The notes below the pieces were generated by a model. It was not told the origin of the DNA. It ran no database searches and saw nothing but the letters and a program-made list of their open reading frames with translations. A stretch of 64,000 bases of DNA. Source: Rhodocollybia butyracea (taxonomy: Eukaryota > Basidiomycota > Agaricomycetes > Agaricales > Omphalotaceae). The position numbers and the translations under genes are program-made. Of this stretch, positions 25,735-37,391 are shown piece after piece. The stretch is from positions 1 to 64,000 of the forward strand of contig JADNRY010000243.1 in NCBI GenBank assembly GCA_015501585.1, given 5' to 3'. The stretch's first letter is position 1. The number at the start of each line of letters is the position of its first letter.

Positions 25735-25739
25735 TTATC

Positions 25740-26010
25740 TGTTGGAGTTACTCCGTACGTACTGGGAGGATATACACAGCTTTGACATTCCCCATTCCGT
25801 ACACGAGATGCTTACTAGATACTATACAGCTGGTTATTTACTTCTGTGCCAGCGCCTCTGACTCCCTCAGTTGTTTTACTATCAACTGAGGTGAGATCGA
25901 TTCTACTTACACATACATTCTTTTGCTAACATAGTTACATAGATTGATTTACCTTAACAGGTACCTAATACAGTTGTTTTACTATCAACTGAGATTGATT
26001 TACCTTAACA
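25740..26010 (+). repeat. 5' LTR of the Copia element, with intron-like insert
   Basis: The 271-bp LTR contains a hairpin CTCAGTTG...CAACTGAG (25,866-25,890), directly followed by GTGAGA...TGCTAAC...ACATAG (25,891-25,942, 52 nt), then ATTGATTTACCTTAACAG, a spacer GTACCTAATA, and a second copy (25,971-26,010) of the hairpin segment joined exactly to ATTGATTTACCTTAACA without the 52 nt. The insert has donor, branch point and acceptor of a typical basidiomycete intron. Confidence 0.9.
25891..25942 (+). other. candidate spliceosomal intron within the 5' LTR
   Basis: 52 nt, donor GTGAGA, branch site TGCTAAC 12 nt before acceptor ACATAG. Its precise absence from the downstream copy at 25,971-26,010 is the evidence for splicing. 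The equivalent in the 3' LTR is 30,700-30,751. Confidence 0.75.
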
Positions 26011-26095
26011 GATTATGGGAATCGTTCTCTAGGAGCAAAGAAAAATTTTCATTGACACAAAAGAGGCCTACAGAAAATTCATAACGAATTAAAAG

Positions 26096-28065
26096 ATGTC
26101 ATTCAGCAATTCACTGAACATATTAAGACTCCCAGACGAGAAACAGCTCGTTGGCGAAGACAACTGGTGGCCATTCAAACGAGAAATCACATTCGCAGTC
26201 GAATCGAGGGGACTAGCTGGGTACCTAGATGGTACTATCCCCAGACCGAACCCAAGTCCGAGCTACCCTGCACAGATCTACCAACAGACCCACGCTACCC
26301 CACTCTACAGTGTAACTCCGGTCTTCGAGGAATGGCTTGCAAGGGACCGTTTGGTTGCAGGGACAATAGTCTCGAATATCATCGACCCTGTAGGTTTGGG
26401 AGTAGACGAATCGAACCGTGCCGCAGAAATTTGGCAAACCCTTGTTAAACGCTTCGAGAAAAGAGATGAGCAACATATCCACCTTGCAGACACTGCTCTC
26501 AGACACGAAAAATTCGATCCCTCCGAGTCAACAATGGAGGACCACGAAAAGAGAATGAGGAATCTCCTCAAGAAGGTCAACGACCTGGGAGGCTCGGCCA
26601 GCGACGCACAGTTCAGACGCATCGTAATTTCCTCCATGCCACCGGACTGGAGGCAAGACACTCGCAACGTCCCTGGGTCGTCGAGCGCAGACGCATTCAC
26701 ATACCTCCACACCCTTTGGCTCGAGAAAGAAGAGGAGCGCCGAGACTCAGAGAGGGATGCCAAACGAGTCAAAGCCTTGATGGCAGGACGCAGCCAACAT
26801 GCTGGAACACAGCGCACAGGAGACACTCCCTTCACCTGCAACAATTGTGGTAAGCCAGGACACATGGCCAAGCGATGCTGGGCTAAAGGCGGGGGCATGG
26901 AAGGAAAAGGTCCTTGGCAGAACAAACCCAAGCAAGGAAAACCTGATCCCACTGCTAATGCAGCCGAAACCGATACTCCAGAGGTGGTCTCCCCAATGGC
27001 CACCTACGTCATGTCAGCCAAGACCAACACCGAGCCGGGTACGTCGTCATCCATCCAAAAGTCTATACCGAATGCTGACCTGGTGAGTAGGCCGAGTAAT
27101 CCCATTCTGAAGGGTACGGGTCAGCAGGAGGAAAGTGACAAGGATGTAGATGTAAATACACGTACCTACTCCATAGTCAAAACGGAGCAGTGCATTGCCT
27201 GTCATGGCCGTACCTCTCTTTACTCCCTTCCAATACCCGTAATAAAGACATTTCTCGACTCTGGCGCATCAGAACATTGCTGGGTGAGGAGATCCGACTT
27301 CACCGAGTATACTAAGGTGGAAGGCCAAGGGGGAAGCAGCGCCATATCCGGCGAGGCCGGGCAATTCCAAATAGTGGGAGTAGGGACCATTCAGTTCGTA
27401 ACACGGGTAGGCGAGAGCGAGAGAGTAATCAAGCTGCAAGGGGTAAAACATACTCCCTCGTTTGGACACAACTTGATATCACTACCGACGTTAGACCACT
27501 GCGGTATGAGGGGTGAGTGGGGAAATGGAGTAATGACAGTTAGAGCTCCAAGTGGTGAGACGATCATGAGAGGTTTTGGTCAGACCAAGATGTATGAGGT
27601 GGAGGTACTGGAATCCGGAGAAACAACAGTCAGCTACTCGCGTGTGCGCGACAGACCAGCAGACATACTTACCTGGCACCGCAGACTAGGCCATATCGCG
27701 ATCCGCCGTATCCTCCGGATGGCGAACCGCAACCTGGTAGACGGCCTAAACATCACTAGACGCAAAGTGCATGGCCTGTGCGAAGATTGTGTATATGGGA
27801 AAGCAACGAAAAAGCCATTCGACGAGGTGCTTACCCATGAGACCGACATACTCGAGAGAGTGCACATCGATTTGTTTGGACCAGCGCGCACACAGACAAG
27901 AGGGGGAGCAAGCTATATGTTGCTGTGTACCAATGGGAGGTCACCATTCCAGGTACCCTTCTACCTATCAGACAAGAAAAAGGAGACAGGAGTGAGGGTG
28001 CTGCACGAGTACCGGACGATGGCAGAAAGACAGACCGGGAAGAAGCTGAAGGTGATCAGAATAGA

Positions 28066-28100
<35 letters not shown>

Positions 28101-30541
28101 CGAACTCAACAATGGGCTGGTCGACACGTACTGTGCGGAAAATGGAATACTGGTCGAGAAAGTTCCGCACGACTCATCTGCCGCTAACGGGGTCGCTGAG
28201 AGAGGGTTCAGGACAGTGATGGAAGGGACACGCACTTTATTGGAAGATTCAAATTTTCCGTACTCGTTTTGGGGCAAGGCTTCCTCTACTTTCATCTACG
28301 TGGATAACTTTGTCCCCTCGGCAAGATACCCAGACTTGGTCCCTGTTGAGGCGTGGACCCAGAAGCGACAGGACATATTGCACTTGAGGCCATTCGGCTG
28401 CGACTGCTGGGCAACATTGCCCAGGAGGAGGACGGATGGAAAGTTGGGTAGACAGGCTGTAAAAGGCCGCCTCCTAGGATACATGGGGCGCAGAGGTTAC
28501 CGAATATGGATACCCGAGACAAAGACCATCGAGGAATCCCACGATGTGACGTTCGAGGAGGGTAATCCTCATCGCACCCGGGATCGAGCGCAGGATGAGA
28601 GCCAGGAGGAGACAGGAGGAGATTTTGACGCCGGGGCACCTAGACAGACAAGCGGCCCTGCATCAACGGACCTGACACCTGGAGATCTCAGCGACACTGA
28701 TCGACACATCACCGATCAAGAATCCAACCCTGAGCCGGGGCAACCAGTCCAGGAACCACCAACCAAAGCCCAACAACAGAACCCAGTACAAGACCTAACC
28801 TGGAGAAGCGCACGCGGCCACATCCCATCACGCCGACTGATCGAAAGTAAAGAGTATGAGGAGAGAGAAAGAGACACACAAGAGGCAGGAGAGACATGGA
28901 CAAACAAAGCCAAGGTGGACGATGAGTCGCTGCTCACCCTAATAGTACAGACACTGTTTAGTTTTGCTGCGACAGTAGGGGAACTATGGGTACCTCAATC
29001 GTACAAGCAAGCCATGCATAGACCGGATCTTTGGACCGTGCCAATGCAAAAGGAATACGATACTCTCATGCAAAAGGAATGCTGGGAGCTTGTACAGCTA
29101 CCACCAGGCGCAAACCTGACGGGCGGCCGTTGGACTTACGCCATCAAGTTCAATGCGCAAGGGAACTTACTCAAGCGCAAAGCGAGGTACGTAGCGCAAG
29201 GCTACACGCAGGTCCAAGGCCAGGACTATGATAAGACCTACGGCGGGGTGGCACAAATGGAATCAGTACGGACAGTGCTCGCGATTATCGCGGTGCTAGG
29301 CCTATCTATATTCCAAGTAGACTTCACGGCCGCCTTCTTGAACAGCCCCATTACGCACAACGTGTATATGAAGCAACCCGAGGGCTTCGTCAAGCCGGGA
29401 TCAGAACACCTAGTCTGCAAACTGAAGAAGTCTATCTATGGCACTATGCAGGGCAGCCACGACTGGCAAGAGACGCTAGCGGCTGGCTATAAGAATGACG
29501 GCTATATCTCCTCTTGCGCAGATCCATGCATCCGATATAGGCGGGTGGGGGATGAGTACACCATCACCAGTACTTATGGCGATGATGTGTGCGGGGGTTC
29601 GTCGACAAAGGAGGGGCGGGACAAGGCCATCGACGACCTTGGAAAGCGGTGGGAGGCAAATGACGATACGCCAGAATCCGGTCACAAAGGATATCACAAT
29701 CTCGCAGAAGGCCTACTTCCAGCGGATGTTGGCTCACTTCGGCCTTGAGCATGTATGCTGACGGAACACGCAACTACCACCCAATGTCAAACTTACAGAA
29801 TCCCCAGACCCACTCCCTGAAGACGAGAAAGTGTTCATGTCCGACAAGCCATACAGGCCTGTAGTCGGATCGGTGATGTGGGGACAGGTGTGCACCAGGC
29901 TCGACATTGCATTTGCGGCTGGATTGCTAGCGAGATACCAGCTGAACCCAGGTAGGCAGCACTGGGAGTGCATCGAGTGGGTTGCCGGATACATACTGAA
30001 TACGCTAGACTACTGCATCATCTACCGGCACCCTCGTACTAGGAGTATTGAGCCGGGCATGGGACTCAAGCCACGGGGCTTTTCGGACTCTGACCATGCG
30101 GGCTGCAGGGATACGTATCGATCCACATCTGGGTACGTGTTCTTCATGGCAGGCGCACCAGTTACATGGAGTTCAAGGAGACAGGTGACGGTTGCACTCT
30201 CCACGACTGAGGCGGAATACATCAGCCTATCAAAAGCAGCCCAGCAGGCTATCTGGTTGTCATTGTTCTTATCTGAGGTTGGATTGAAGCAGGAGGGGCC
30301 GATTGAGTTGCAGGGGGATAACTTTGGATCCGTGAGCTTGACAGAAAACGCTACACGCCATGCCCTGGTGAAGCACATAGAGATGAGGCACCACTACGTG
30401 CGGGAGAAGGTGGCAAAAGGTCAGGTTACGGTGGTGAGGATTAGATCCGGGGAGAACGTCGCAGATTTACTTACAAAGGCGCTGAATGGGCCGACACACG
30501 CAAAGCTGGTCTCGATGTTGGGGATAGATCGTACGGAGTAG
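26096..30541 (+). pseudogene. Copia gag-pol polyprotein, three frame lesions
   Basis: ATG 26,096 begins the gag; a CCHC zinc knuckle CNNCGKPGHMAKRC lies near residue 248 and the protease motif FLDSGASEHCW near residue 388. Integrase has the HHCC region (HRRLGHIAI ... GLCEDCVYGKA) and catalytic aspartates in VHIDLFGP and RIDGGG. Reverse transcriptase shows VDFTAAFLNSP and the catalytic box TYGDDVCGG (YGDD rather than the commoner YVDD). RNase H ends with STTEAEYISLSKAAQQAIW and ADLLTKALNG. Lesions: 34 consecutive G at 28,067-28,100 shift the frame inside the integrase core; a frame change lies at about 29,640-29,700 between RT and the ISQKAYFQRML segment; and TGA 29,759-29,761 interrupts the RT-RNase H connection where arginine would fit. 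It cannot make a full polyprotein as assembled. Confidence 0.9.
28067..28100 (+). repeat. 34-nt poly-G run inside integrase
   Basis: An uninterrupted run of 34 G follows ATAGAC. About 8 G would restore the expected IDGGGE motif and frame. Either slippage expansion of a natural G-rich codon run or a sequencing/assembly artefact. Confidence 0.95.
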
Positions 30542-30547
30542 GGGGGG

Positions 30548-30819
30548 TGTTGGAGTTACTCCGTACGTACTGGGAGGATATACACAGCTTTGACATTCCC
30601 CATTCCGTACACGAGATGCTTACTAGATACTATACAGCTGGTTATTTACTTCCATGCCAGCACCTCTGACTCCCTCAGTTGTTTTTACTATCAACTGAGG
30701 TGAGATCGATTCTACTTACACATACATTCTTTTGCTAACATAGTTACATAGATTGATTTACCTTAACAGGTACCTAATACAGTTGTTTTACTATCAACTG
30801 AGATTGATTTACCTTAACA
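30548..30819 (+). repeat. 3' LTR of the Copia element
   Basis: 272 bp; same architecture as the 5' LTR, with hairpin 30,674-30,699, intron-like segment 30,700-30,751 and intron-free copy 30,780-30,819. It differs from the 5' LTR by CA for TG and A for G in the TTCTGTGCCAGCGCC region and by one extra T in the hairpin loop. Confidence 0.95.
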
Positions 30820-31621
30820 TTATCTAGCCCAAAATCCCGATGCGCATCCATTGCAGCTACCTTTACCTCGGGACTAGTAGCAGATGACAGTGTCCTGCCA
30901 GCTCAGTCGGAGACGTGTCATGGAGATAGAGATAGTACTGCAACTAACGGATCCAATTGTCGGCAGGAAACAGTCACCTTGTAGGGTGGTGCTAGTACCT
31001 AGGTATCCATTAACATGTGTGCATCTGTCTGTGTTGAGAGATCTCGCCTATGATTTGAGTCGTTATAAGCTAGAGTACTGAAAGTCGTGGGAGTCAATAC
31101 ACTATAAGCCAGCTGGTTCCCATATCTAGGTGTGTTAATACCTGAGCTATAGCTTGTGGTAGGCTATGGGACTGGCAAGTTACTCAAGAACCGTGGCGCA
31201 GAATTTTGGGTCGTTTTGGGTGTCTGGCCCAAAATGGGACTTTGAACGAACAGACATGAAGGCTTATTGAGATGTACAGGGGCTCCATTAGCATGGAAGT
31301 TTGTAGCCTGCTGCTGAGCAACTGGAGACTCGGTGGACGAAAGGTAGGCTAACAACTATACGCAGCAGAATGAGTAGACTCTGAGTGCTGAGGGACCAAG
31401 TAGTCTGGGTGAAAGCAGGCCTGAGGATGCTAAATTTGATCATGAAAGCCGTGGCAAGGTCGACTGCCAATGAGAGTTATTTTTGTCTGCAAGCTGGTGA
31501 GAGAAAAAGTTGACATTTTTTTTGAAGACAGTGAGCCACGGAGGATGGTACACGAGGTATTATGGGCAGGCCTTCTCACGTGCAGGTTTCATCTCTCTTC
31601 CCCGCTGTTAGTAGTGTAGCA

Positions 31622-36824: not shown

Positions 36825-36945
36825 AGATTTCTGTTCTACTTTACAGGCTGTTTGTATATCTGCACAGCGTGCGGAGGTATATTTGTTTACTTATATACTT
36901 TGTTATTTTGTAGTGACTCCCTCAGAGTGTTTCCTTATCTCTGAG

Positions 36946-36995
36946 GTGAGTTTACTTAGTTTACTTATACTTTCTTATACTAACGATGTCCATAG
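36946..36995 (+). other. candidate spliceosomal intron in the LTR-like segment
   Basis: 50 nt with donor GTGAGT, a perfect TACTAAC branch site and acceptor CCATAG 11 nt later; missing from the second copy at 37,413-37,455. Confidence 0.7.
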
Positions 36996-37014
36996 CTTAA
37001 GCTTACTTGTACTT

Positions 37015-37391
37015 CGCATCAGGAAAAGCCGTTTTTGCCTAGGTGACTCCAGAGTGGCCTAAAGCAAACTAGGTGACCTATGAATCCTATGGCATCCTAG
37101 GAATTTGGGCTCGTCCCTTGCCAGTCAAGGCTCTTGAGGATTCCCTAGGGTATCCTAGGCAAACCCAGGGCAAGCCTAGGTTTGCCCAGGTTTGCCCAGG
37201 TGTTCCCCAGGTGTTCCCCAGGAGCACCTGGGCAAACCTGGGCAAACCTAGGCTTGCCTAGGGAATCCTCAAGAGCCTTGACTGGCAAGGGACGAGCCCA
37301 AATTCCTAGGATGCCATAGGATTCATAGGTCACCTAGTTTGCTTTAGGCCACTCTGGGGTCACCTAGGCAAAAACGGCTTTTCCTGATGCG
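37015..37391. mobile_element. foldback MITE, 377 bp
   Basis: The ends CGCATCAGGAAAAGCCG and CGGCTTTTCCTGATGCG are complementary and the symmetry continues nearly to the centre (about 37,205; GCCTAGGTTTGCCCAGG), so almost the whole element is one hairpin. The CATCAGGAAAAG/CTTTTCCTGATG end also occurs at 55,158-55,225 and near 42,345. Inserted in the LTR-like segment. Confidence 0.8.

Follow-up and report, generated by a model that had tools for sequence, protein, structure and literature searches.

A Copia-type retrotransposon of Rhodocollybia butyracea that appears to reverse transcribe spliced RNA while keeping two introns in its long terminal repeats

Reverse transcription of spliced RNA is expected to strip a retroelement of its introns. 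Human T-lymphotropic virus type 1 (HTLV-1) and the foamy viruses carry a splice donor in the R region of the long terminal repeat (LTR); they replicate from unspliced RNA and are not known to have a spliced R copy in the LTR. In a 1985 experiment with Ty, as recounted in a later paper, an artificial intron tag was removed on passage through RNA (PMC12786077). A coding-region intron makes the gag messenger in BARE (PMC3735527) and in EVADE (PMC12786077), and Ogre also has an intron (PMC12786077). The BARE paper states that retrotransposons have to keep spliced RNA from being packaged and reverse transcribed; because introns are lost on reverse transcription, one RNA pool is needed for splicing and another for replication (PMC3735527). 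Here we describe an element of the basidiomycete Rhodocollybia butyracea that would depart from this rule. It is a Copia-type (Ty1/copia) LTR retrotransposon at positions 25740–30819 of a 64,000-nt stretch of contig JADNRY010000243.1, referred to below as the window, in which all features discussed are read on the forward (+) strand. Probably, this element has two spliceosomal introns within its LTRs and reverse transcribes spliced RNA without losing them.

Direct reading gives the same order of parts in both LTRs: a hairpin segment (H1), an intron-like segment of 52 nt (intron 1), a segment denoted E1, a 10-nt spacer, and then second copies of H and E (H2 and E2). The second H-E in each LTR is the exact splice product of the first, with only the 52 nt absent. 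In the 5′ LTR (25740–26010, 271 bp, TGTTGG...TTAACA), H1 at 25868–25890 would be exon 1 and the start of the transcribed leader, followed by the putative intron 1 (25891–25942, GTGAGA...TGCTAAC...ACATAG), E1 as exon 2 (25943–25960), the spacer (GTACCTAATA, 25961–25970), H2 (25971–25993), and E2 (25994–26010), an intron-free copy of E1 that ends the LTR and is its putative U5. The motif TCAGTT at 25867–25872, which is initiator-like, would place the transcription start at its A (25869), where the duplicated unit begins. The 3′ LTR (30548–30819, 272 bp) has the same architecture over 30676–30819, with its copy of intron 1 at 30700–30751 and H2 plus E2 at 30780–30819. Its first H contains one T more than that of the 5′ LTR, a difference not mentioned in an earlier sequence-only reading of this DNA. 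The central claim of that reading, a 52-nt insert and an exactly spliced second copy in both LTRs, was confirmed by direct reading, by word searches, and by a mechanical detector. Allowing up to three mismatches, the window contains two occurrences of the word joining the end of the insert to E and three of the H word (in an ungapped search, which misses the H1 with the extra T), all in these LTRs and against 0 expected from shuffles. The detector, set to the order H, GT..AG, E, spacer, H, E, picked out these two LTRs and nothing else in the window, and it scored 0 in the reversed control. The donor, branch, and acceptor of intron 1 resemble the consensus of fungal spliceosomal signals.

Relatives of the element were searched for in the same genome (95.6 Mb). 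Exact patterns for close relatives matched the unspliced form 52 times and the spliced form 49 times, several matches being copies of one insertion. Further 5′ stretches were picked through a reverse transcriptase (RT) search, in which 150 of 598 candidates were scored. Among 18 such stretches, 14 have the full layout, one has H-E only (C431), one has the second copy only (L098), and two gave no LTR; two of six additional stretches have the layout (C494:880k and C650:300k), with an RT 36% identical to that of the window element, and in another of the six, C562, the LTR was not located. Ten 3′ stretches yielded eight with the layout, one H-E form (C431), and one in which no LTR was found (C569); by eye, all nine elements with an LTR have a 5-bp target-site duplication. 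Mean identity between the 13 lineages compared is 0.67 for H, 0.59 for E, and 0.58 for the spacer, and within one LTR the two copies are identical or 1–3 letters apart. A one-off event was rejected because the layout recurs in diverged lineages with different H, E, and spacer. A large Copia clade probably makes splicing integral to reverse transcription, with R doubled into a cap-proximal exon and an intron-borne transfer target. A single viral-contig scan turned up no relative. One insertion with the same flanks is present on contigs C257, C542, C564, C566, C634, C641, C828, and C950, reflecting either segmental duplication or a multi-haplotype assembly. In L032 (C113) and C567, an insertion of about 1 kb with terminal inverted repeats (GCCCTTTTCATAAT...) lies inside the dual LTR and splits E1.

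The two copies of H and E change in concert. In 11 insertions of the window element's superfamily, the loop and the E variant of one copy recur in the other; the exceptions are five single-letter differences, spread over four insertions. Self-restoring LTR introns would be expected to homogenize the copies within elements. Among the 55 pairs drawn from these insertions, the copies within an LTR were closer to each other in 53, the copies matched by position were closer in 0, and 2 were ties; the mean edit distance was 0.45 within LTRs and 4.05 between them. Because the copies match within an LTR and differ between lineages, one copy must be renewed repeatedly from the other, the second from the first or the first from the second, without the intron being carried along.

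Removal of intron 1 alone would yield the leader H-E-spacer-H-E, so every cycle would lose the intron or lengthen the LTR. A second intron-like unit, absent from the sequence-only reading, was predicted and then found. It is the putative 51-nt unit at 25961–26011 (GTACCT...ACTGAG...CCTTAACAG), which comprises the spacer with its donor, H2, E2, and the first base after the LTR; E1 ends with the same CCTTAACAG ahead of that donor. Removal of both introns would leave H-E directly at the primer-binding site (PBS) and so keep the LTR from growing. The corresponding unit of spacer, H2, E2, and G is a GTA..YAG segment of 51–73 nt across the lineages. In all 13 of them, E1 has YAG at its end and the spacer opens with GTA, and E2 provides a YAG acceptor in all 12 lineages read to the E2 end, 10 of them at the PBS and two just before it (the C753 stretch stops short of the E2 end and was left out of this count). 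The spacer itself is 10–22 nt long, near random at positions 4, 5, 8, 9, and 10, and partly conserved as T and A at positions 6 and 7. In 12 of 13 lineages, a branch-like motif of the CTRA type stands 14–29 nt ahead of the AG, either ACTGAG-like at the end of H2 or, in lineage K, TACTAAC. In lineages K and L, a TTAG splice site closes the repeat, and extra bases (TTCCAACAG and CTCTTACAG) separate this site from the PBS; thus, the end of the repeat tracks the splice site and not the end of the LTR. Intron 1 is 47–56 nt long with GT..AG ends in 12 of 12 lineages, the 13th (C753) having a decayed donor, and contains a CTRA-type branch motif in eight of the 13.

Read partly by eye, the start of the duplicated unit lies at the A of the initiator-like motif or 1–3 nt upstream in 12 of 13 lineages and at a G in lineage H. 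H1 together with the preceding CTC (25866–25890 in the window) forms a stem of 6–10 bp in all 13 lineages; this CTC stands ahead of H1 in every lineage and ahead of H2 in full only in lineage G. The stem sequence varies by lineage with pairing kept, as in CTCAGTTG/CAACTGAG, CTCAGCC/GGCTGAG, and CTCGATTG/CAATCGAG, and this kept complementarity of H1 suggests a selected hairpin at the start of the transcript.

The PBS (26011–26031) starts immediately downstream of the LTR and can pair with a 5′ half of elongator tRNA-Met that ends at position 40. The window element matches at 17 of 21 bases and relatives C486, C136, and C605 at 21 of 21; unbroken complementarity spans 14–21 nt in the nine relatives compared. 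The elongator tRNA-Met genes L101–L103, found with a pattern that leaves room for a tRNA intron, appear to have an intron in the anticodon loop, its boundaries being our own reading (ARAGORN called L102 Met, L101 Trp, and L103 Lys). Since the primer complement runs across the junction left by splicing, a tRNA that was first spliced and then cut would serve as the primer. In lineages I–L, the PBS looks like half of an initiator tRNA-Met. Because the PBS adjoins the leader H-E once both introns are gone, strong-stop DNA would be the complement of H-E.

We propose the following cycle. Transcription would start at H1, and intron 1 (after H1) and intron 2 (spacer-H2-E2-G) would both be spliced out of the 5′ leader to give cap-H-E-PBS. 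Half of tRNA-Met would then prime at the PBS, producing minus-strand strong-stop DNA complementary to H-E. The RNA would end in or after the second H, with AATA in the spacer possibly acting as the poly(A) signal; intron 2 would consequently lack an acceptor at that end, and intron 1 would escape splicing there. Strong-stop DNA would pair with the second H, the putative true R and minus-strand transfer target, and be extended through the spacer, E1, intron 1, H1, and U3. The new LTR would read U3-H-intron 1-E-spacer-H-E, rebuilt whole with its introns, the second H-E being fresh cDNA of the spliced leader in each cycle and the introns being supplied by the RNA 3′ end. The sequence-only reading had envisaged a self-maintaining intron, with strong-stop DNA of a spliced 5′ end added behind the unspliced copy at the 3′ end. 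The core of that idea gains support from the concerted evolution, the many lineages, and the junction base described below. Two parts of it had to be revised: a second intron-like unit was added, and the join is better described as a homologous H-to-H2 transfer than as a blind end-to-end addition.

At the base before H2 (the junction, 25971 in the window, immediately before the shared A), a nontemplated, cap-derived, or one-letter-upstream-start base would become fixed under this cycle. T, C, G, and A are all present there among 51 matches, in which the flanking letters are fixed by the pattern. Elements C594 and C1149 have 282-nt LTRs, 5′ and 3′ being identical within each element, and differ from each other at this base only; C58 and C569 differ at this base and by three other transitions.

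Errors in the cycle would generate three altered LTR forms, and the rare LTRs that have them support it: H-E if transfer occurs to H1, H-E-spacer-H-E if intron 1 is spliced at the 3′ end, and H-intron 1-E (H-I-E) if intron 2 alone is removed. Both LTRs of C431, the 5′ LTR of C1156, and C47 have the H-E form, in which both introns are absent; C676 probably has it as well. The 3′ LTR of C431 equals that of C58 minus exactly H1 through the spacer, and its 5′ LTR is one base further off. This form would be expected if strong-stop DNA paired with H1 and not H2, and the same sequence would result if the stretch between H1 and H2 were deleted. Both LTRs of C1360 (target-site duplication AGTTT) have the H-E-spacer-H-E form, without intron 1. 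The H-I-E form, without intron 2, occurs in C14 and C983, each with a target-site duplication, in C778 ahead of a 3′ LTR linked to a polypurine tract (PPT), and in C827, C1260, and C1085, whose shared flanks mark them as one insertion. L064 (C1156, 1029–5968) has unlike LTRs within one TGCCA target-site duplication, with H-E at the 5′ end and, at the 3′ end, H-E together with part of a second H-E. Narrower patterns gave 8 matches without and 27 with the intron; they miss first copies after CTCCCTCAG and are unusable as a ratio. Two of the eight intron-less matches are C431, and C676 looks like H-E; C460, C517, C518, and C990 also matched. The remaining one, C753, was rejected as a case of intron loss because its donor has decayed and the intron is retained.

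Several observations weigh against the proposed cycle. Intron 1 has no CTRA-type branch motif in five of 13 lineages, lineage H has no intron 2 branch motif at a plausible distance, and the intron 2 donors (GTACCT, GTATAT, GTAGTT, and others) are suboptimal. Copia lineages C602, C224, and C710 (RT 34–39% identical), three of the six additional stretches, have an LTR end without the layout. The junction base is not always variable, since C594 and C558 agree there despite eight other differences, as do C58 and C494 despite two. The exact loss of intron 1 in C1360 could reflect conversion by the second copy. A subfamily without intron 1 (C47, C278, C668, C692, and C1305, with two pattern matches each) suggests that such elements have multiplied, although only C47 among them is seen as H-E before the PBS; because elements without intron 1 exist and one such subfamily apparently multiplied, the introns are not essential. 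The cycle also gives no reason why intron 1 should escape splicing at the 3′ end. Splicing, the start site, the poly(A) site, and the choice of template are all deduced from DNA, which, the GTA/YAG constraint excepted, cannot by itself separate removal of intron 2 from slippage between E1 and E2.

The alternative that survives best, which we nevertheless regard as unlikely, is that templates for reverse transcription start at H2, so that R is H2 and U5 is E2, with H1-intron-E1 being a part of U3 that serves a separate spliced messenger and occasional conversion keeping the copies alike. It would account for the variable base before H2 and for LTRs cut to H-E by transfer to H1, and the two RNA pools of BARE offer a parallel (PMC3735527). 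However, it leaves unexplained why both H and E evolve in concert, why the spacer-H2-E2 unit has GTA (13/13) and YAG (12/12 read) ends, and why the repeat in lineages K and L stops at the splice site and not at the end of the LTR. A start at H2 is also difficult to square with the CTC found before H1 in 13 of 13 lineages and before H2 in full only in lineage G.

Slightly more improbable still is the same transfer cycle with intron 2 left unspliced, in which reverse transcriptase slips between E1 and E2 to give a short H-E strong-stop DNA. Removal of intron 2 would then be a deletion between direct repeats, and the H-I-E forms with target-site duplications (C14 and C983) and the irregular 3′ LTR of C1156 would be expected deletion products. 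Slippage, however, has no need of the GTA that follows E1 without exception in the 13 lineages, whose spacers are otherwise dissimilar, and the TACTAAC branch in lineage K also speaks against it. It is very improbable that an LTR segment was simply duplicated and then underwent gene conversion at the DNA level, with the 52-nt segment being lost or gained. Conversion could homogenize the 20-nt repeats and could produce the C1360 form without intron 1, but acting in both directions it should also give LTRs with intron 1 in both copies, and these numbered 0 among the 52 matches (one exact pattern, close relatives). Their absence argues against DNA-level conversion, which was rejected on this count and which leaves the splice-site boundaries in all lineages and the change at the junction base unexplained. 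Chance or an assembly artifact, to which the 34-nt G run within the element might point, is a negligible prospect: chance was rejected by the 0 expected occurrences in shuffles and the 0 of the reversed control, and an artifact by the recurrence of the structure on many contigs, in LTR copies numbering in the tens, with 5-bp target-site duplications in most of those with both flanks read.

The window element is flanked by the target-site duplication TTATC (25735–25739 on the left and 30820–30824 on the right) and has a G-rich putative PPT at 30541–30547 ahead of the 3′ LTR. The gag-to-integrase part of the polyprotein lies at 26096–28219 (PF14223, PF00098, PF22936, and PF13976), and an SH3-like domain and the reverse transcriptase part follow at 27925–29748 (PF25597 and PF07727), in a different frame past the G run. 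The C-terminal part at 29831–30541 has no Pfam match and is assigned to the RNase H region by position. A copia-type gag with a CCHC knuckle and an RVT_2 reverse transcriptase are thus both present, the gag_pre-integrs and SH3 domains preceding the latter; no integrase-core match was found in the polyprotein pieces searched, whose frame is broken at 28067–28100. The run of 34 G at this break is either real or assembly filler. Among named proteins, a Lentinula edodes pol fragment comes closest (85% identity). Elsewhere in the window, the sequence-only reading had claimed that the 52-nt segment fits the introns of host genes. This did not hold: a loose intron pattern gave 39 matches versus a shuffle mean of 46, which is not an enrichment, and no host-gene intron was established. 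Such introns were rejected as a yardstick on that account and because a top look-alike (36946–36995) is LTR-derived. A fragment of another such LTR, near lineage L (C650:300k), occupies 36917–37022; CTCCCTCAGAGTG...H, a 50-nt GTGAGT..TACTAAC..ATAG intron that mimics a host intron, and E are followed there by unrelated sequence.

If the proposed cycle is correct, these elements are a natural exception to the loss of introns through reverse transcription, their leader introns surviving because each new LTR combines a spliced 5′ end with an unspliced 3′ end. Spliceosomal introns would then be inherited stably through an RNA template, both from the RNA 3′ end; splicing would be tied to strand transfer, and each insertion in a diverse set of elements would record its last cycle. 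No LTR that pairs an unspliced R copy with a spliced one was recognizable from titles or the starts of abstracts in the open-license literature searched. The element itself belongs to Copia, and its manner of keeping introns looks new. With Ty1/copia (Pseudoviridae), it shares the Copia-type gag, the CCHC knuckle, the pre-integrase and RT domains, the 5-bp target-site duplication, and the PPT; a half-tRNA primer is also described for Drosophila copia (PMC5371799). What sets it apart from them is an LTR with two intron-like segments and, in addition, a leader copy free of introns. BARE, EVADE, and Ogre are likewise LTR retrotransposons with spliced RNA, but in window-type elements, in contrast to BARE and EVADE, the spliced RNA seems to be the template. 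Whereas the tag was lost from intron-tagged Ty, window-type introns would return in new copies, supplied by the RNA 3′ end. The presence of splice signals inside the LTR is shared with HTLV-1 and the foamy viruses.

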